NCBI GenBank assembly: GCA_016186995.1
Contig: JACPKQ010000002.1
Coordinates: 1-17,018, forward strand
Direction: 5' to 3'
Origin: Deltaproteobacteria bacterium
GTDB lineage: Bacteria > Bdellovibrionota > JACOXK01
Length of the DNA stretch: 17,018 nt
Shown: positions 3,790 to 15,690 of the stretch, one piece after another
Position numbering within the stretch: position 1 is the stretch's first letter
How the letters are laid out: every line of letters starts with the position of its first letter
Position numbers and translations under genes: made by a program
Notes under the pieces: model-generated
What the model saw: the letters and a program-made list of their open reading frames with translations, nothing else
The model's database searches: none
What the model was told of the DNA's origin: nothing

Positions 3790-3818
3790 TTGACACGTTG
3801 CACAACCACTTATTTAAT
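3790..3818 (+). promoter_or_regulatory. Near-consensus sigma70 promoter of the envelope operon
   Basis: TTGACA (3790-3795, six of six) is followed by exactly 17 bases and TTTAAT (3813-3818, five of six). Transcription would start near 3825, leaving a leader of about 75 bases before the first gene. It is the strongest promoter-like sequence in the window and probably drives the four genes that end at 9132. Confidence 0.6.
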
Positions 3819-3853
3819 GTTTTTAGGTCCGTGTTAGTCTGTTGTGGCTACGC

Positions 3854-3872
3854 CGTTTTGAGGATCAAAGCG
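3854..3872 (+). promoter_or_regulatory. Hairpin in the leader of the envelope operon
   Basis: CGTTTTGA (3854-3861) pairs with TCAAAGCG (3865-3872), with one G-U pair and a 3-base loop. It is followed by a GC-rich purine stretch leading to the GAGG ribosome site (3887-3890). It may modulate access to the first start codon, or be a leftover of a dispersed repeat. There is no direct proof of function. Confidence 0.35.
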
Positions 3873-3898
3873 CGGAGCGACGACGAGAGGGTATCGTT

Positions 3899-4348
3899 AT
3901 GAAAAAATTTTTTGTTCTTGTTTTTTTTATTAGTTTTTCAAGTGTTTGTTTTGCAGGAATTCCAAAAGATCTTGAAGAAAGACTTTTAAGCCATCCTTGG
4001 AATGGATTTATCACAAATGTCGATAGTCTGAGTAACAGTCAAATACAGATTTTAATCAACTTTATTCGTGATGAGAGAGGGCCCCTTAATGCTACAATCA
4101 CCCTTTATAATTACGAAACAGGCAATGGACGTTTTAATTTTACGCGCTTTGCTGATGTAAAGTATAATAATGTGAAAGAACATCTTCTTATTTCTTGGTG
4201 GCCACCACTCACCCCTAAAAACAGACAAACGTGGATTTTAGAATCTACCTTCATTGCAGATACCTTTATAAGTGGTTTGTTTTTAGAACAACCTCGAACC
4301 GAAGAACCTGATGTTCTTGTCGAAAAAGGCACTTTTAGAATTCAATAG
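3899..4348 (+). CDS. Small secreted protein of unknown function, first gene of envelope operon
   Basis: The 149 residues begin with a strong Sec signal peptide (Lys2-Lys3, Phe/Val core, probable cut after C-F-A at residue 19). An in-frame TTG at 3842 would add 19 residues, but that extension is very Arg-rich, reads through the leader hairpin and would bury the signal peptide. The ATG at 3899, with GAGG 8 bases upstream, is therefore preferred. The mature protein of about 130 residues has no cysteines or membrane segments and has a beta-type pattern (alternating aromatic/hydrophobic residues such as T-I-T-L-Y-N-Y, and W-W-P-P). No family is recognised. It ends 45 bases before the outer-membrane protein gene on the same strand, which suggests co-transcription and a periplasmic role alongside it. 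Confidence 0.8.
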   Translation: MKKFFVLVFFISFSSVCFAGIPKDLEERLLSHPWNGFITNVDSLSNSQIQILINFIRDERGPLNATITLYNYETGNGRFNFTRFADVKYNNVKEHLLISWWPPLTPKNRQTWILESTFIADTFISGLFLEQPRTEEPDVLVEKGTFRIQ

Positions 4349-4393
4349 CTCTTTCTTGAAGTTCATGTGAAGCTCTGATAGAAGTGAGCCTTC

Positions 4394-5719
4394 ATGGTTC
4401 GACGCTTGATTCTTTTTGCGTTTGCTGTATCGTTTTTTTTACTTTCTTATGTGCAAGCGGGAAGCCTCATTTTTTTTCATGAAGCTCAAAATAATATTCC
4501 TGCTGTTGAGCTAGAAACCAACCAGTATTTTTATACTTCTCAGTATAGAGAAAGTAACTTTGAACAAAGATATTCTTTAAGTGTTAAGGCTTATTCAGAA
4601 AAAGATCAGGATTTTCAATACGGTTTAGCGAGTTATTTTTGGAAGTTAGAACCAAGTGAAGTTGCTCAGTGGTTTGAGGTGAGTGAGCTTTTTGTTGGAT
4701 TTCAAACCCCCTCTTGGCAGGTAAAATTAGGGCGAGTTTTGCCACAGTGGGGGAACTTGCACTCTTATTCTCCTGTTTTAAAAAATTTTCCTTATTTTTC
4801 GTTAGATCCTCTGTCGAACATTCAAGAAGGGCTTGTAGGTGCTTATTTTTCTTACAGGGGAAAAAAAACAAAAGTTGAGTTTCTATTAAGTCCTTTATTT
4901 ATTCCTCTTTTAGGAGGTCCTCGTCTTGAGGGTGTTGGAGAAGATCATTTAGAAGTATGGTCAAGATGGCTTCCGCCTTTACTCTATCGCGCAAAAATGG
5001 GAGGTGGTATTTTACCTGTAGATTATACAGTCACCCTCCCTAAAATAGTAAATGTTTTATTTCAAAATGGAGCTATTGTGAGATGGGGTGCTCACAACGA
5101 GGTCGGAAGTTTTTCTGTTCATGCTGCCTCTGTCATCAACCCTTCACCAAGAATACGTATAGAAGAAAAACTGGTTCCTCATAAACCAGAATTAAGAGCT
5201 TATTTAAGTCCGGAGTTTCACAGAGAAGAAATGATAGGTCTTGATGGGCAAATAAATTTTTTAGGAGGTTCTTTTTTTAGTGAAGCGTCTTATGTAAGAC
5301 CACGTAATCCACATTCTTTGTTAGAAAACATGTATAAAAATGCATCTTTCAAAACGCTTTTAGGAATAAAAATAGCGAACGCATCTTGGTTACCCCATTG
5401 GATTGCAGGACTCTCTTACGAAAAGATATTGGGGCAAAAAACTGTTGATTCCACCCCAGGTTTTTTACCTCATAAATCACCTTTTCTTTTTTTTACATCT
5501 TTAAATTTAAAACCTTTTCATTGGAGCGAACTCGGCTTTATGACTGAAACCGATAGTGAGTTTAAAGAAGGTGTTTTAAGAGGAAGTTTTGGATTTTTTA
5601 CGTTTGATAGCTTTTCTTTATCTTTAGGGTTAGATGTTTTGTGGGGAGAGGATGACACTTATTGGGGGCAATTTCGCGCGCATGATCGTATGTGGCTCAA
5701 AGGAACTTATGTTTTTTAA
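4394..5719 (+). CDS. Predicted outer-membrane beta-barrel protein
   Basis: The 441 residues start with a signal peptide (Arg3-Arg4, hydrophobic core, cut after V-Q-A near residue 22). The mature part is rich in aromatic and Gly residues, with alternating amphipathic strands (for example Q-R-Y-S-L-S-V-K-A-Y, F-Q-Y-G-L-A-S-Y-F-W, W-Q-V-K-L-G-R-V-L). It ends K-G-T-Y-V-F, the terminal-Phe strand recognised by the BAM machinery. Length and pattern fit a 14-16 strand or larger barrel. The motif G-R-V-L-P-Q-W-G-N resembles a pattern seen in porin-like barrels with a plug segment, but I cannot name the family or substrate. The start has only a weak ribosome site (GAAGTGAG). Its 3' end overlaps the next gene by 11 bases, so the two are probably translationally coupled. 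Confidence 0.75.
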   Translation: MVRRLILFAFAVSFFLLSYVQAGSLIFFHEAQNNIPAVELETNQYFYTSQYRESNFEQRYSLSVKAYSEKDQDFQYGLASYFWKLEPSEVAQWFEVSELFVGFQTPSWQVKLGRVLPQWGNLHSYSPVLKNFPYFSLDPLSNIQEGLVGAYFSYRGKKTKVEFLLSPLFIPLLGGPRLEGVGEDHLEVWSRWLPPLLYRAKMGGGILPVDYTVTLPKIVNVLFQNGAIVRWGAHNEVGSFSVHAASVINPSPRIRIEEKLVPHKPELRAYLSPEFHREEMIGLDGQINFLGGSFFSEASYVRPRNPHSLLENMYKNASFKTLLGIKIANASWLPHWIAGLSYEKILGQKTVDSTPGFLPHKSPFLFFTSLNLKPFHWSELGFMTETDSEFKEGVLRGSFGFFTFDSFSLSLGLDVLWGEDDTYWGQFRAHDRMWLKGTYVF

Positions 5720-8081
5720 AAAAGTACAGTTTTTAGTTTTTGCTCTTTCTGTCGCAGGTTGCAGTAGAATGATTGGAGAACCTCCCCCTCTCCAAAAAGA
5801 GCTTGTTATTGATTTTAAAGATTCACAAACTCAAAAAGAATCTGAAAATCCGTGTTCTATAGACGTTTATCTTCTTACCAAGGCGTTTGAAACAGGAGCT
5901 TTAACAACTTCAAGTATACAACAAACTGTGTCTTGTGTTGAAGAAGCTTTAATAACAGCTCAGAAGAAGCTTGAAACAATTGAAGAGGGTGTTTTAAGTT
6001 ACGATGAACTTCAAAAAGTTATTGATGCAAAAGTTTTGGGTGATCCAGTCGAAATCAAAAAATGGGTGTGGAGACTTTTTTCAGCTCGGGATATTATTTT
6101 AGGAGAAAATGTTAAGAAAATTTCTTTTTTTCAAATTTCTAAAATTCTTAAAAAAATTAAAAATGGAGCAAGAGAAATAGAGTCTCTTTCTCAAAGCTTT
6201 TCACGATATCAAAAGTTATCTTCAGAGAAAAAGGAATACTGGGGTACCCGGAAAAAACTTATAGAAGCCTATCTTAATTTAGCAAAAAAATTAATAATTA
6301 ATGAACAAGGAAAGTATGAACGTTCTTACACAAAGGATTTTCTTTTAAAGCAGTATCGTGTGTGGGACTCTCTCCATGAAGAAGTGGGCGAGCACTATGT
6401 TAAGGCAGGCTTTTTGGCTAACAGAGTTTTTTTTGGAAAAACAGAGGGTTTGATTGAGGCTTTCGATTTTGAAAAACTGCTTCAGTATTTTATTGAAGTT
6501 TATATGCTTGTGACTGATGTTGAAGAGCTTTTAGCAAACAAGGTTTGGACCATAAAAGAATCTATTTCTTTTATTAATGCCTATAAAAATCTTTTAGAAA
6601 AACTTCTTCATATTTTTTTGGCCGAAGGTCAAAAAGAACTTAAAAAAGAAGATCTTATTCGTATGCTTGAGTTTCTTCATGAGCCTGTAGAAGGTAAAGG
6701 AGGCGAGCTTGTCGAAGCAATTTTAGAACTTAAGGTTAAGATTTTTGGTGGAAGTTTAGAATCTTTTACAAATGAAGAGCTTGAAAAAATTTCAAAAAGT
6801 TTTAAGTATGGTGTGGATTCTTACAATAGAAGTGAAAGAATTTTTGAAAAAAGGAAAGATTATCTTTCACTTGAAGAAATAAAACAATGGATAGAAGAAA
6901 AAGGCTCCATACTTGCCGATGCTAATGATTATTTTAAAATACTTGAATCGCTTCCTAAAATTCTTTATTTTTGGACAACTCCTTATCAAAGTAGTTTTAT
7001 TATAAGAAAATCAAATTTTACGCTTTCTCAAGTCACTTCTGTTTTGTTTAGAAATATTGTGGATGCTTATGATGACGATCAAGATGGAAAGCTTTCTTTA
7101 AAGCTTTATGATGTTAGGCCAGAAGTACCTCCTGAAATTGGGCACATGGAGTTAATAGGACTTGTAAATACAACTCAAAAATTTTTTAAAGGGCTTGATT
7201 TTTTGGCAGGTAAAAAAGACGATATGTGGTCAAAACCCTTAGGCCTAGATCCTCAAATCTTGGGTCAAGTTTTGATCGTTTTAGCAGATCAGCTTCTCTA
7301 TAACAGTAATGCAGATAATACTATTGATACTTTTGAGTTAACAGAAGTTGCAAGTTTTATTTTTGAAAACATGCGCGCCGTCACTTGGTTTTATTGGGAT
7401 CCTAAGATACGCCCTTTTCATCTTCCCGGTACAGAAAATGAACAAAAGCTTCTTAAAAGAGAAGGATTGCTTTCTTTATTGGATGAAGTTGAAACTTTGC
7501 GGTGGTATTTCCCAAATATTATTCAAGATTTATCTCAAAAAGAAATTGTTCAATATGTTGAAAATTTTATTGCTATGATTGGAAGAAACAATCCAGAAAA
7601 TATCTCTTCAAGTGAGTTAGGAATTATTTTTGGAGTCGTAAGACTTGTTGAAACTATTTTTCTTAAATATGATCAGAATAAAGATGGTTTTTTGGATTAT
7701 AAAGAGGTGAACAAAATTTATTCTCATTTTGAGCCAACTATTAAATCTATTATTCAAAATCATGAAAAATACGATAAAGATTTTGAAAATATTCCAGTCA
7801 TTGGGGCAGTAGGTCAGTTTAGTACTTACATCCTTAAAAAATTTAGAAAAAATATTATTTCTATGGATTCGATTTATAAAAAAATCTTTCAGTATTCAGT
7901 CACAAATGCAAAACTTCCAAAAAGCTGGGGAGATCTCTTTGTTGTGAAAATTAAAGGACCTGATGACATGGATTCTATTTCTTATTTTTCTGAAAACAGA
8001 GTCAAAACAGATCGTATGACTATTTCTAAACTCTTAGCTGATATTGCTAAGACAGCTCAAGAGATTAATTGGGATGAATAA
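5709..8081 (+). CDS. EF-hand calcium-binding lipoprotein of unknown function
   Basis: The 790 residues start at the ATG that overlaps the end of the barrel gene. A longer frame from a TTG at 5634 would lie inside that gene and hide the signal. Residues 1-18 are a lipoprotein signal with lipobox V-A-G-C (Cys18). Ser follows the Cys, with no Asp retention signal, so outer-membrane sorting is expected. The body is Lys/Glu-rich and mostly alpha-helical. Three EF-hand loops are visible: residues 455-466 (D-D-D-Q-D-G-K-L-S, but Leu instead of Glu at position 12), 532-543 (N-S-N-A-D-N-T-I-D, ending in Glu, Asn in place of Gly6), and 655-666 (D-Q-N-K-D-G-F-L-D-Y-K-E, fully canonical). At least one site should bind calcium. 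No enzymatic motif was found. The gene overlaps both neighbours, which points to a shared complex or process with the barrel. Confidence 0.82.
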   Translation: MFFKKVQFLVFALSVAGCSRMIGEPPPLQKELVIDFKDSQTQKESENPCSIDVYLLTKAFETGALTTSSIQQTVSCVEEALITAQKKLETIEEGVLSYDELQKVIDAKVLGDPVEIKKWVWRLFSARDIILGENVKKISFFQISKILKKIKNGAREIESLSQSFSRYQKLSSEKKEYWGTRKKLIEAYLNLAKKLIINEQGKYERSYTKDFLLKQYRVWDSLHEEVGEHYVKAGFLANRVFFGKTEGLIEAFDFEKLLQYFIEVYMLVTDVEELLANKVWTIKESISFINAYKNLLEKLLHIFLAEGQKELKKEDLIRMLEFLHEPVEGKGGELVEAILELKVKIFGGSLESFTNEELEKISKSFKYGVDSYNRSERIFEKRKDYLSLEEIKQWIEEKGSILADANDYFKILESLPKILYFWTTPYQSSFIIRKSNFTLSQVTSVLFRNIVDAYDDDQDGKLSLKLYDVRPEVPPEIGHMELIGLVNTTQKFFKGLDFLAGKKDDMWSKPLGLDPQILGQVLIVLADQLLYNSNADNTIDTFELTEVASFIFENMRAVTWFYWDPKIRPFHLPGTENEQKLLKREGLLSLLDEVETLRWYFPNIIQDLSQKEIVQYVENFIAMIGRNNPENISSSELGIIFGVVRLVETIFLKYDQNKDGFLDYKEVNKIYSHFEPTIKSIIQNHEKYDKDFENIPVIGAVGQFSTYILKKFRKNIISMDSIYKKIFQYSVTNAKLPKSWGDLFVVKIKGPDDMDSISYFSENRVKTDRMTISKLLADIAKTAQEINWDE

Positions 8082-9132
8082 GAATATCAAACGTATCGCT
8101 TTTTTCTTAGGAAGTATCATGGTTCTTTTTGTTTTCCAGATTTCTTATTCGGAAGAAATTGACCCCTATAACTCATATCAATGGCATGGAAGGAAGGGCG
8201 AAGATTGGTATGAGTGGTGGTATTTTAAACTCATCGATCCAAAAACAAAAACGCCTTTTTATTTCGTGTATGGGGTTGTCAATCCTTGGGATATTTCTCA
8301 AAAGAAAGAATCTTCTAGAGCTATGGTCAGTATTGGAGATTTTTCAAATCACACCATGATGACACAAAACTTTTCTCCCAAAAGTTTTAGCGCAAGTAGA
8401 GAAAGACCACTTGTAAGCATTGGAGAATATAATTTAGCAACAGATCAAAAAATAGAAGGGTTCATTTTTCAAAATGGATATTATGCACGATGGAATTTAA
8501 AAATTAAAAAAATTCGCGGATGGCAAGCGATGGGGTGGGGTATGCCTCTTAAGGTTTTTAACATTTGGTGGTACCCCGCTCAAATGGATGCCACGTTTTC
8601 TGGAACAATAGAGATGAATGGAAAAGTTTATGAGATTGAGGATGCTGATGGTTATCAAGATCGTAACTGGGGGACTTCATTTCCAAAATGGTGGTATTGG
8701 ATGGTTTCAAACTCTTTTGTAGAAAATGAAAACTCTTCTTTAGCTTCTGGAGGAGGAAGCGCAGCAACTCAATATGGTCTTCCCCTTCCGACAGCTGTTC
8801 TTATAGGGCTGTATCATGAAGATAAAATGTATAGTTTTCGTTCCTCTGATATTGGAAACTATATTGATTATGATATTAAAATGGGAAGTTGGAATATCAC
8901 AGCCATTCAACCTAATTATAAAATAGAACTTCAAGCAAGCTGTGATTTAGATGAACTTATGGATCTTGAGTTTATAACCCCAGGAGGTCAAGTTTTTCAT
9001 GATTATGAAACCTTAACCGGAACACTTTCTGTAAAACTTTACGAGAGAAGTTTTTTTAGATGGAAAGAAATTGCCTCTTTAAGCTCTATCGATACAGCGG
9101 GCTTAGAGTTAGGCCTTGATCGTGAATTATAA
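8074..9132 (+). CDS. Exported tocopherol cyclase (VTE1-like) family protein
   Basis: The 352 residues have a signal peptide (Lys3-Lys6-Arg7, long hydrophobic core, cut after S-Y-S near residue 26). The rest carries the hallmarks of the tocopherol cyclase family: an N-terminal W-Y-E-W-W-Y-F-K segment followed by Y-G-V-V-N-P, a central Y-Q-D-R-N-W-G-T-S-F-P-K-W-W-Y-W block, an S-G-G-G stretch before L-P-L, and the C-terminal D-T-A-G-L-E-L-G motif. The cyanobacterial and plant enzymes close the chromanol ring of tocopherol precursors. Length is close to the cyanobacterial enzyme (about 360). Whether this exported homologue cyclises anything is unknown; it may be a lipocalin-like lipid binder. 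The start at 8074 overlaps the lipoprotein stop by 8 bases. It is the last gene of the operon. Confidence 0.8.
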   Translation: MNKNIKRIAFFLGSIMVLFVFQISYSEEIDPYNSYQWHGRKGEDWYEWWYFKLIDPKTKTPFYFVYGVVNPWDISQKKESSRAMVSIGDFSNHTMMTQNFSPKSFSASRERPLVSIGEYNLATDQKIEGFIFQNGYYARWNLKIKKIRGWQAMGWGMPLKVFNIWWYPAQMDATFSGTIEMNGKVYEIEDADGYQDRNWGTSFPKWWYWMVSNSFVENENSSLASGGGSAATQYGLPLPTAVLIGLYHEDKMYSFRSSDIGNYIDYDIKMGSWNITAIQPNYKIELQASCDLDELMDLEFITPGGQVFHDYETLTGTLSVKLYERSFFRWKEIASLSSIDTAGLELGLDREL

Positions 9133-12511: not shown

Positions 12512-14902
12512 TTATTGGGAGAGCGAAAGAAGAGCTGCTTCAACAGCCTTATCATGTTCGTCAGGTGTTAAGGCGCGTCCTTTAACACCCAGTACCGTTC
12601 TTAATTTCGTGCGCACTTTATCCCACGTAGGTGTATTATAATGTTGATGGCACGCCACACAAAGTCCCTCTCGTTCCACTTTATCTCTTTCTGCTTGATT
12701 GAGAGGGCGATCTTTTAGAAGCGGCATGTTTTGAATTTGCTTACCACTTCTGGTAACAAGCTGATCCCATGAATAAGGAAATTCTTTAATGGCCGGAATT
12801 TGTGGCTTTGCATTTTTTGAGGTTGGAATATCTCCCCCTAACTCTTTTCCTTGATTTGCAAACAAGGGTGCATCTCCTTCAAGTTCACCAGCCGATCTAC
12901 TTTTACTCATACCATAGCCAATCGATTTTGGATTTGTATGACAACTTTCGCACGTTCTTGCCACAAGCGTATTGGCATGTGGTTGGAGGGGAGCAAGCGT
13001 GGGTGAATTGTATCCATCAGAGGTTTGATAAATTTTATTACGAGTAGTTACTTTTCCGTCTTTACCAACAAACGTCCACACAACCTGACAGCCTGGTACG
13101 GCAGGAGATACTTTTCCTTTATAATCCATAGCCAAAATAGGGTCTTCCCATCTTAAATACCCTACATTTTCAATCGCAATATCTCCGGGGGTTTCAGTAT
13201 TGACCTGTTTTCCCAAGGCATTTCTTTTTTCTGCAGATAAAGCCCAATCTGTCCCCATTTTATTGGCATCGTATTTAATATGACACCCAAAACATTGTGG
13301 AGCCGAAGTCGAGTGACAGGCATAGCAGTTTAGTTTTTCTATGTGCTGCGGTATGACGCTCATTGCCACATGACCCTGTTTTGTTTTCCATTTTTTTTCT
13401 AAATCAACATTTTTAAGCAAAGGAATTTTCCTTTTTTGCCCATCTTTTGAATTAACCAAAAAAGCCTCATGTTTTTCTTTAATCCAGCGCGTTTGTGGAT
13501 TTCCACGATTGGTAATGAGATATTCTTTTCCATCCTCTGTTTTAAAGACTCCTCGTTCTTTTTTAGTTGTCACAGGGGTTCCATATCCAATAGGTAATTC
13601 CCACGGATATTTTTGGGGTGTTCCATGACAATCTGAACAAGAAATTTCAACTTGGTAAAAAGTCACCGGATAAATATTTCCATCCCCATGCACATCAACT
13701 GAAGTATGGCAATCAGCACATTGCATGCCACGTTCGGCATGAAGATCAGCTCTCGTTTGATTATATTCTTTCGTAAAAAGGGGTTTTTGAGGATTTCCTT
13801 CTTCATCAAAGGGAGGTGTTTTTCCTGTTCCTACATACGCATGCTCAAAAAGTCCTGTAAAAGAAGTCCCGATTCTTTTTCCTCGGGTATGACAATGCGT
13901 GCACTGCTCGGCAGGAATACTCGTTGTAATTTTATGAAGCATGGGGTGAGATTCTTTATCTTTTGGTATGGTGGGATCACCCCCTTCATAAAGGGCATCA
14001 TTCGTATAAAGTGTATGGCAGGCTGCACATCCACCCGCTCTGTGATCTCCTCTTTTGGCTCGTCCTTCACCCCAGACATGGCAGCGTGCACATTGTTTTC
14101 TGTGCATATCTGCAAATCCTGCTTTGGCAGCTCCCCATAGCTTTGTTCCTTCTTCCAAATTTGGAATTTTTTCAGTCTTATGAAGTGCCTCGATAAAACC
14201 TTTATCTAAAGCCTTTTTAATCCATTCTTTATATTCCGGCGTTCCTGCAGAGGGGATAAGACCATCTGGATCATCCATATCAAAGTTGGCATATTTCCAA
14301 TGCCCTTTAGGAATCACGCCATTGGACATGAGTGTTTTATTGGCTTTTCCCGTTTCAAGTGCCATCAAAGCTCGTTCCATACGATACACATGATTGCTAC
14401 CCGTAGCCCCACTTGGATCTGAAGCAAAACTTTTAAACTGCATCAGGCTTCCACCGGAAGGATGATCTTTTACTTTCCCCATGAGTGTTTTTAAGGCATC
14501 TTTATCGCTATGACACTTAGCGCATCCCAATCCTTGATTTAAAACCCACATACTAGAAGGATTGGGATACATCCCGTTATGCGCTTCAGTTTTTGTTAAA
14601 GCATCGGGTTTTCCCTCATGGCATACCGCACATTCAAACCCAACTTTTCCTCCAGCATAAGCTAAAAGATAAGGCTGCATTTTTTCGTTAATGATTTCGA
14701 TTCCTTCATGACAAGAAAGGCACCCCTTTTCTTTTGCTTTCTCTAAACTGACTGAATCAAATTTTCCAGAAGAGGAATGAGAATCCACTTTTTGTTCTTG
14801 TTTGATCCAAAGAACGACACCTGTTACTAAAATTCCAACGCAAGCAAATGCAAAAAACGAAACGGTTGGGGCATTGATAATTTTACTTAATATCTTTTTC
14901 AT
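12512..14902 (-). CDS. Membrane-anchored dodecaheme (12 CXXCH) cytochrome c
   Basis: The 796 residues begin with a short basic N-terminus and a single hydrophobic segment (about residues 12-34), probably an uncleaved membrane anchor. The remainder faces the periplasm. Twelve CXXCH haem c sites are present: CLSCH, CAVCH, CAKCH, CARCH, CAACH, CTHCH, CADCH, CSDCH, CYACH, CFGCH, CESCH and CVACH. They are spread unevenly, three before residue 130, seven in the middle and two in the last quarter. Many extra His residues fit bis-His coordination. It probably moves electrons between the quinone pool and a periplasmic or extracellular acceptor. I cannot assign it to a named multihaem family, and no catalytic Lys- or Tyr-ligand signature is seen. 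The start is ATG at 14902; two TTG codons upstream are less likely. No clear ribosome site. The partner gene for a quinol oxidase is absent here. Confidence 0.88.
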   Translation of the reverse strand: MKKILSKIINAPTVSFFAFACVGILVTGVVLWIKQEQKVDSHSSSGKFDSVSLEKAKEKGCLSCHEGIEIINEKMQPYLLAYAGGKVGFECAVCHEGKPDALTKTEAHNGMYPNPSSMWVLNQGLGCAKCHSDKDALKTLMGKVKDHPSGGSLMQFKSFASDPSGATGSNHVYRMERALMALETGKANKTLMSNGVIPKGHWKYANFDMDDPDGLIPSAGTPEYKEWIKKALDKGFIEALHKTEKIPNLEEGTKLWGAAKAGFADMHRKQCARCHVWGEGRAKRGDHRAGGCAACHTLYTNDALYEGGDPTIPKDKESHPMLHKITTSIPAEQCTHCHTRGKRIGTSFTGLFEHAYVGTGKTPPFDEEGNPQKPLFTKEYNQTRADLHAERGMQCADCHTSVDVHGDGNIYPVTFYQVEISCSDCHGTPQKYPWELPIGYGTPVTTKKERGVFKTEDGKEYLITNRGNPQTRWIKEKHEAFLVNSKDGQKRKIPLLKNVDLEKKWKTKQGHVAMSVIPQHIEKLNCYACHSTSAPQCFGCHIKYDANKMGTDWALSAEKRNALGKQVNTETPGDIAIENVGYLRWEDPILAMDYKGKVSPAVPGCQVVWTFVGKDGKVTTRNKIYQTSDGYNSPTLAPLQPHANTLVARTCESCHTNPKSIGYGMSKSRSAGELEGDAPLFANQGKELGGDIPTSKNAKPQIPAIKEFPYSWDQLVTRSGKQIQNMPLLKDRPLNQAERDKVEREGLCVACHQHYNTPTWDKVRTKLRTVLGVKGRALTPDEHDKAVEAALLSLSQ

Positions 14903-14956
14903 CAACAACTTATATGCAAACGCTGTGTTCTTTCATAATATATAACCTAAGGTATA

Positions 14957-15024: not shown

Positions 15025-15690
15025 TCATTGTTTGTTTTTTGAGCTAAATTTTCGGTATGTAAGAACAATGATGCCAAATCCAATAACTAGAGAAAAAATA
15101 AGCACGATTCTGAACTTATCAATAGGCTCTCCCAAGGATGCCCCAATTAAATTATATGTAAAACTTCCAGGAATGGTACCGATAAATGTTGCCAAAAGAT
15201 AATCTCGAAACCGAAAACCACAAATACCAGAGACATAGTTAACAAACTCCCACGGAAAAAGGGGAATAAGACGCATCACAAAAATGGACATAAAACCATT
15301 CTTGGATAAAAAGCGGTCGCACACTCCTGCTTTGGTATCTTTGAGTATTTTTTGCATGAAGCCTCGGCCAAAATAACGCGAGATTCCAAAAGCAGCCCCT
15401 GCGCCAAACAAGGCACCCACGACAGTATAAACAGTTCCCAAATAAGGTCCCCACACCATGCCACTTGCCATGGAAAGCAACGCTTCTGGAAAAATAAGTG
15501 TGGCAGAAGAAATAACATAAAGTAATACAAATACAAAAGGTGCAAAGTAACCTAGGGCTTGCATCTCACTTTTGATATTTTCAACCGAAAGTTTTTCATG
15601 CAATCCTAATATTTTAGACAAAATAAAAAGCCCCATCAGGGCAATCATCAAAAGAGAAAACTTAATATATTCTTTTTTTGAACTTTCCAC
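15025..15690 (-). CDS. TVP38/TMEM64 (DedA-like, SNARE-associated) family membrane protein
   Basis: The 221 residues contain about five hydrophobic segments (roughly 10-28, 48-72, 80-110, 130-155, 190-212). The family signature is visible: F-P-E-A-L-L-S-M-A-S-G-M-V-W-G-P-x-x-G, then G-A-G-A-A-F-G-I-S-R-Y-F-G-R-G, and the re-entrant F-V-M-R-L-I-P-L-F-P-W-E-F-V-N-Y-V-S-G element followed by the F-x-x-Y-x-x-A-T-x-I-G-x-I-P-G-x segment. Such proteins sit in the inner membrane and are linked to lipid scrambling or membrane homeostasis; the exact substrate is not assigned. The start is GTG (15690); an in-frame stop just upstream limits extension, and AAAGG lies rather far away. It is 122 bases upstream of the cytochrome gene on the same strand, so co-transcription is possible but not required. 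Confidence 0.88.
   Translation of the reverse strand: MESSKKEYIKFSLLMIALMGLFILSKILGLHEKLSVENIKSEMQALGYFAPFVFVLLYVISSATLIFPEALLSMASGMVWGPYLGTVYTVVGALFGAGAAFGISRYFGRGFMQKILKDTKAGVCDRFLSKNGFMSIFVMRLIPLFPWEFVNYVSGICGFRFRDYLLATFIGTIPGSFTYNLIGASLGEPIDKFRIVLIFSLVIGFGIIVLTYRKFSSKNKQ

Follow-up and report, generated by a model that had tools for sequence, protein, structure and literature searches.

The four genes on the forward strand between positions 3899 and 9132 of the 17,018-nucleotide stretch analysed here (the window; contig JACPKQ010000002.1 of the Deltaproteobacteria bacterium assembly GCA_016186995.1) raise the question of whether they encode one envelope system or whether a smaller unit lies within them. 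A first-pass annotation, made from the sequence alone, had read them as an operon for a secreted protein, an outer-membrane barrel, an EF-hand lipoprotein and an exported tocopherol-cyclase-like protein, and had proposed that the products work together in a four-part envelope model. That model is half supported by our analysis. The barrel and lipoprotein genes (genes 2 and 3) very probably form a functional unit, as judged from their phylum-wide neighbourhood, a fixed overlapping start codon and signs of co-evolution, whereas genes 1 and 4 do not belong to it. The layout itself was confirmed by the open reading frames and the sequence: all four genes lie on one strand and carry export signals (the signal peptides were judged by eye), and the spacings are, as had been claimed, 45 bases between genes 1 and 2, -11 between genes 2 and 3, and -8 between genes 3 and 4. 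Likewise, the identities proposed for genes 2, 3 and 4 agree, respectively, with an AlphaFold2 model, with a lipobox and one Pfam EF-hand above the cut-off, and with a strong match to the tocopherol cyclase family. The features of the four genes are as follows.

3899..4348, + strand: gene 1, predicted small secreted protein of 149 amino acids (open reading frame; signal peptide ending SVCFAG)
4394..5719, + strand: gene 2, predicted outer-membrane beta-barrel of 441 amino acids (signal peptide, AlphaFold2 model, C-terminal Phe)
5709..5719, + strand: overlap of genes 2 and 3, ATGTTTTTTAA, 11 bases that hold the barrel's Val-Phe-stop and the lipoprotein start
5709..8081, + strand: gene 3, predicted lipoprotein of 790 amino acids with about 12 EF-hand-like units (lipobox, PF00036, model)
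8074..8081, + strand: overlap of the end of gene 3 and the start of gene 4, 8 bases, read from the sequence
8074..9132, + strand: gene 4, predicted exported tocopherol-cyclase-family protein of 352 amino acids (PF14249; signal peptide ending ISYS)

The conserved unit within the four genes

In a survey of 240 genomes of the phylum, the barrel family was matched in 197 and the lipoprotein family in 187. The two genes are usually neighbours, often with several pairs per genome, and a second pair is found in this genome (G000:C29). Among the 150 best barrels on the list, at least 83 lie within 1.5 kb of a lipoprotein that was also listed; 61 of these pairs are co-oriented and 22 are divergent. The gene maps of the mapped regions, most of which were picked by a barrel match and a few by a lipoprotein match, show a neighbouring lipoprotein of this one family for 28 of 29 barrels; of all members, the sole mapped barrel without such a neighbour (L092) comes closest to DUF1302. 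One contig scan gave six loci only, from close relatives, and several contigs of the nearest relatives come from groundwater. No constant third partner of the pair emerged across the groups compared. Its neighbours are acyltransferase, phospholipase-D-like and histidine-kinase genes in one group, carboxypeptidase, hydrolase, ribonucleotide reductase and FabMG genes in a second, and GDPD, NUDIX and NYN genes in a third.

The four-gene order, for which a neighbourhood check had been set beforehand, was seen in no relative examined, with genes 1 and 4 lying elsewhere, so the conserved unit is genes 2 and 3 and a conserved four-gene system was rejected. Gene 1 has no Pfam or NCBIfam match, and its homologues in class-mates lie on other contigs or at other loci than the pair. 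At L081 the neighbours of this homologue are ftsZ, ftsA, ftsQ and an NAD-dependent DNA ligase gene, and the gene clusters around it are common to L080, L083 and L084, although the L083 homologue is not annotated as an open reading frame of its own. Gene 4 is, by its sequence, clearly a member of the tocopherol cyclase family PF14249 (124.3 bits, cut-off 26.6, E 7.6e-36), and a sequence search of the PDB with it found nothing. Its homologues lie on contigs or at loci apart from the pair in G002, G004, G005, G006 and G053, and PF14249 occurs in only 35 of the 240 genomes, whereas the lipoprotein is in 187 and the barrel in 197. Where a PF14249 gene shares a contig with a pair (G089 and G154), it is about 6 and 5 kb away, respectively, with other genes between. 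Moreover, paralogous pairs in this genome and in relatives have neither gene 1 nor gene 4 alongside, so the pair can do without them. Just one further genome of this family was available, G001, which is 89% complete and matched none of the four genes.

A family-restricted system of four proteins would have the pair act on a lipid together with the secreted protein and the tocopherol-cyclase-like lipocalin. It would agree with the tight packing of the genes, where genes 3 and 4 overlap by 8 bases, and with the single promoter-like site, as well as with the lipid-enzyme genes (PlsC, phospholipase-D-like, GDPD) that stand beside pairs in some relatives. The absence of the order from every relative, the location of the gene 1 and gene 4 homologues and the paralogous pairs that lack both genes make it very improbable. 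Genes 1 and 4 may instead have joined the transcript locally, within this lineage, around a conserved core of barrel and lipoprotein.

A start codon embedded in the barrel gene

In 20 of the 23 co-oriented pairs inspected, the distance from the lipoprotein ATG to the end of the barrel gene is exactly 11 bases, and one further pair has TTG at this place. The embedded ATG is formed where a Tyr (or His) codon meets a codon for Val, Ala or Asp, ahead of the last residue and the stop. In some pairs the mechanically called lipoprotein reading frame would permit an earlier in-frame start, and the start at -11 was preferred because it yields a proper lipoprotein signal. On the wider phylum list this spacing is found in 41 of 61 co-oriented pairs (37 at 11 bases and 4 at 14, where the profile match extends one codon further), and several of the other gaps arise because only part of the lipoprotein was matched. 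Five barrels with a divergent lipoprotein gene end in YTF, YLF, YMF, FIF or FAF and have no embedded ATG; these cases come from related genomes and are not independent. Such a pattern would be expected of a motif that is retained because it couples translation and that disappears once the genes part, and it suggests selection on one short sequence that would serve both as the barrel's C-terminal insertion signal and as the start of its partner.

The distances among barrels and those among lipoproteins correlate at 0.93 over 27 pairs, a value to which shared species history contributes, and for that reason true partners were compared with swapped ones. The true partners fitted better in six of the seven genomes with two pairs.

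The barrel

Gene 2 has the signal peptide, the barrel fold and the C-terminal aromatic residue of an outer-membrane beta-barrel, and a C-terminal Phe is present in 26 of 27 barrels of the family. Its AlphaFold2 model, built on seven sequences, has a predicted local distance difference test score (pLDDT) of 72 and a predicted template modelling score (pTM) of 0.71. The best structural matches are OccK/BenF-like porins (Z 19.1; 3jty, 3.7 Å over 293 residues), followed by AlgE (18.5), MOMP (18.5) and Wzi (18.2). Since these top matches are tied, the fold class is safe and the subfamily is not. No Pfam or NCBIfam family matched gene 2 above its cut-off, including OprD/Occ, Wzi (0.099) and DUF1302, and the PDB sequence search gave nothing significant, only weak capsid matches (E >= 0.029). 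The check with profile hidden Markov models that had been recommended for each protein was thus informative for gene 3 (EF-hand) and gene 4 (PF14249), with nothing significant for genes 1 and 2. The model supports a reading of gene 2 as an OprD/AlgE/Wzi-like outer-membrane barrel.

This structure, together with the copy number of the pair, bears on the possibility of a SusD-like surface receptor, in which the lipoprotein would lie outside the cell, bind a ligand (a metal, a polymer, or a prey or host surface) and pass it to the barrel, with the EF-hand units as a scaffold. We consider this unlikely: the barrel does resemble substrate-selective porins, and several diverged pairs per genome would fit substrate-specific uptake, but nothing in the analysis points to surface exposure of the lipoprotein, and a barrel of 441 amino acids whose model has no plug domain is far smaller than the SusC type.

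The lipoprotein

The lipobox of gene 3 is LSVAGC, with the lipid-bearing position at Cys18, which is invariant in an alignment of 26 sequences; no Pfam lipoprotein-site model matched the protein. Residues 647-671 match the Pfam EF-hand PF00036 just above its cut-off (25.6 against 25.4 bits), and a Pfam EF-hand was found in 13 of the 26 lipoprotein relatives (E up to 0.1). In the PDB, profile matches of the family were to hippocalcin and calmodulin chains. The AlphaFold2 model of gene 3 (pLDDT 72, pTM 0.69, also on seven sequences) consists almost entirely of helices; short strands lie in the loops, and a helix-strand-helix pattern is seen at about 12 places. When structural matches were re-aligned, almost all were EF-hand proteins, among them the calmodulin-like domain of CDPK (Z 7.6), calpain domain VI (6.7), calmodulin (6.6) and CBP40 (6.3). 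The motif hydrophobic-Ser/Thr/Asp-x-x-acid marks loop ends repeatedly along the chain. Because of the structural matches, the Pfam EF-hands in relatives, the PDB profile matches and these recurring loop ends, gene 3 is probably an EF-hand array, mostly degenerate, in so far as the model is right. Two of its loops stand out.

7302..7337, + strand: near-canonical EF-hand loop NSNADNTIDTFE, residues 532-543 (family consensus SNGDxxLxxxE)
7671..7706, + strand: EF-hand loop DQNKDGFLDYKE, residues 655-666, fully canonical for calcium, within the Pfam EF-hand at 647-671

Calcium binding by gene 3 is predicted from the one canonical loop. The first-pass annotation had proposed a calcium-responsive lipoprotein, and this could apply to one canonical and one near-canonical loop, while most of the EF-hand-like units have no calcium ligands. 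Such degeneracy is what would be expected of a structural or assembly partner, a lipoprotein that folds, stabilises or tethers the barrel as LptE does for LptD, with calcium stabilising only the lipoprotein fold and gating nothing; the fixed coupled start and the co-evolution of cognate partners would suit that role equally. On the other hand, the size of the array (lipoproteins of 630-1323 amino acids in relatives) and the conserved canonical loop near the C-terminus both exceed the needs of a folding helper, and we regard a purely structural role as improbable.

Proposed function and significance

We hypothesize that genes 2 and 3 are a translationally coupled two-gene module, in which the barrel works with its cognate lipoprotein as a partner. 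An outer-membrane anchor would hold the lipoprotein so that its array lies at the barrel's periplasmic opening, and the coupled start would set the ratio of barrel to lipoprotein and let both assemble together. One or two working calcium loops could then stiffen or open the array, and the complex would act as a calcium-sensitive transport or export portal of the outer membrane, like AlgE with AlgK. The portal function is a tentative proposal, with the balance tilted against it. The statement as a whole, a translationally coupled barrel and cognate EF-hand-array lipoprotein that form a calcium-sensitive portal, we hold to be about evenly poised between right and wrong.

Several observations weigh against the proposal. 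Co-translation can be dispensed with, since the barrel and lipoprotein genes diverge in one group of genomes. The swap test did not discriminate between the partners of the two pairs in this genome, and the mirror-tree correlation carries the share of species history mentioned above. The mapped neighbourhoods hold no conserved inner-membrane partner or substrate gene beside the pair. For gene 3, a Foldseek search with the model gave no match below 0.001, all structural Z values are under 8, and most loops are degenerate. Both models were built on few sequences, and the complex is proposed here from genes and from separate single-protein models.

Complexes of a barrel and a lipoprotein are a central theme of the outer membrane, and in the open-licence literature we found no description of such a pair with an EF-hand-array lipoprotein. 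The pair is a candidate sensor that would respond to calcium directly at the outer membrane of bacteria. That genomes carry several diverged pairs suggests versions specific to different substrates, and two unnamed families gain a joint, testable identity. It would be a far-reaching and improbable extension that the phylum has multi-copy outer-membrane transport complexes gated by a calcium-responsive, EF-hand-derived chain that is co-translated and whose start codon is hidden in the barrel's C-terminal insertion signal, as a counterpart of calcium-gated channels.

Transcription and genomic context

The site upstream of gene 1 that had been called a near-consensus promoter is the following.

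3790..3818, + strand: promoter-like site TTGACA-17-TTTAAT, upstream of gene 1

It consists of TTGACA at 3790-3795, 17 bases, and TTTAAT at 3813-3818. Of its 12 positions, 11 agree with the consensus, a score that no other site in the window reaches and for which about 0.33 sites per strand would be expected from simulated sequence; the -10 hexamer departs from the consensus in having no A at position 2, and because of that a stricter promoter scan did not list the site. As the promoter of gene 1 it is plausible on sequence grounds. The GC-rich leader ahead of gene 1 (3820-3898) has an odd composition and no Rfam match, and the only RNA families found in the window were two tRNAs. On the same strand, a LysR gene ends 118 bases upstream of the four genes and a TPR gene begins 209 bases downstream, and a scan of the window detected no terminator between the LysR gene, the four genes and the TPR gene.

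Elsewhere in the window, a large protein of at least 683 amino acids without a Pfam match is cut by the window edge (3-2054). A multiheme cytochrome gene (12512-14908) resembles ExtM of the selenite/tellurite reduction operon (NF040943, 253 bits, under the cut-off of 800), and the gene for a VTT-domain protein (15025-15690) adjoins it. The second PF14249 gene of this genome (L066, 2778-10309, on G000:C14) lies beside FAD-linked oxidase, glycerol-3-phosphate-dehydrogenase-like, fatty-acyl-reductase-like and GMC oxidoreductase genes, a group that is possibly an ether-lipid or alkyl-lipid cluster.

At L072, L073, L074 and L075, exported phospholipase-D-like genes (c12 and c6) and two other genes (c11 and c10) lie upstream of the second pair, and in the first three of these loci a PlsC gene converges on that pair. 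The combinations c11-c10 and c12-c6 (G002, G004, G005 and G007) were considered as extra barrel-lipoprotein pairs and rejected, c12 and c6 being phospholipase-D-like and c11 and c10 having no family match. At L069 (2332-5445, on G004:C78), the barrel shares a single open frame with a preceding MFS plus PlsC-type acyltransferase (LplT/Aas-like), and neither a stop nor a usual start separates them; this is either a real fusion or a stop lost in assembly. Glycosyltransferase- or heptosyltransferase-like genes are found near a pair in two distant genomes (L065, 12089-17104, and L085, 10199-11179), as judged by a look at the sequence and a shared cluster only.

Comparison with known systems

Two papers that came up in the literature concern other matters. 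The one on Bdellovibrio PopA describes a different barrel with a pentameric assembly, and a CASP16 paper was rejected as a description of the pair, since its mentions of EF-hands and of Bdellovibrio have nothing to do with each other. EfhP of Pseudomonas aeruginosa is an EF-hand protein tied to calcium responses (PMC4053335). It resembles gene 3 in being a bacterial EF-hand protein, a likeness by description only. Neither a barrel partner nor a long array is known to us for EfhP.

The multi-EF-hand proteins calmodulin, calpain, CBP40 and secretagogin resemble the model of gene 3 in its predicted helix-loop-helix repeats and short pairing strands, and gene 3 has one canonical loop. However, it would have about twice as many units, most of them without calcium ligands, and is a bacterial lipoprotein. 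Among barrels, the DUF1302 family (PF06980) is matched by the distant member L092 at 3.9e-05, but the window barrel has no such match and L092 has no lipoprotein neighbour. The OprD/Occ porins, MOMP and Wzi are the best structural neighbours of the gene 2 model, although gene 2 has no significant match in Pfam or NCBIfam. To our knowledge, none of these three has an EF-hand lipoprotein partner.

In the AlgE/AlgK system, AlgK, a helical-repeat lipoprotein, contributes to the localisation of AlgE and has been proposed to open it (PMC9734138). Each system consists of two proteins, a barrel, with the gene 2 model similar in fold to AlgE (Z 18.5), and a lipoprotein of helical repeats that in the case of gene 3 is predicted to lie in the outer membrane. 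They differ in that genes 2 and 3 share an embedded start codon and in that the repeats of gene 3 are EF-hand-like whereas those of AlgK are TPR, no TPR family being among the matches of the 26 lipoproteins; since its repeats are not TPR, the pair is not a member of the AlgE/AlgK system. Among the window genes scanned with Pfam there is no polysaccharide synthase or modification gene beside the pair, and the glycosyltransferase-like genes near this genome's second pair were not scanned. By analogy, AlgE with AlgK would be the nearest working model for the pair.

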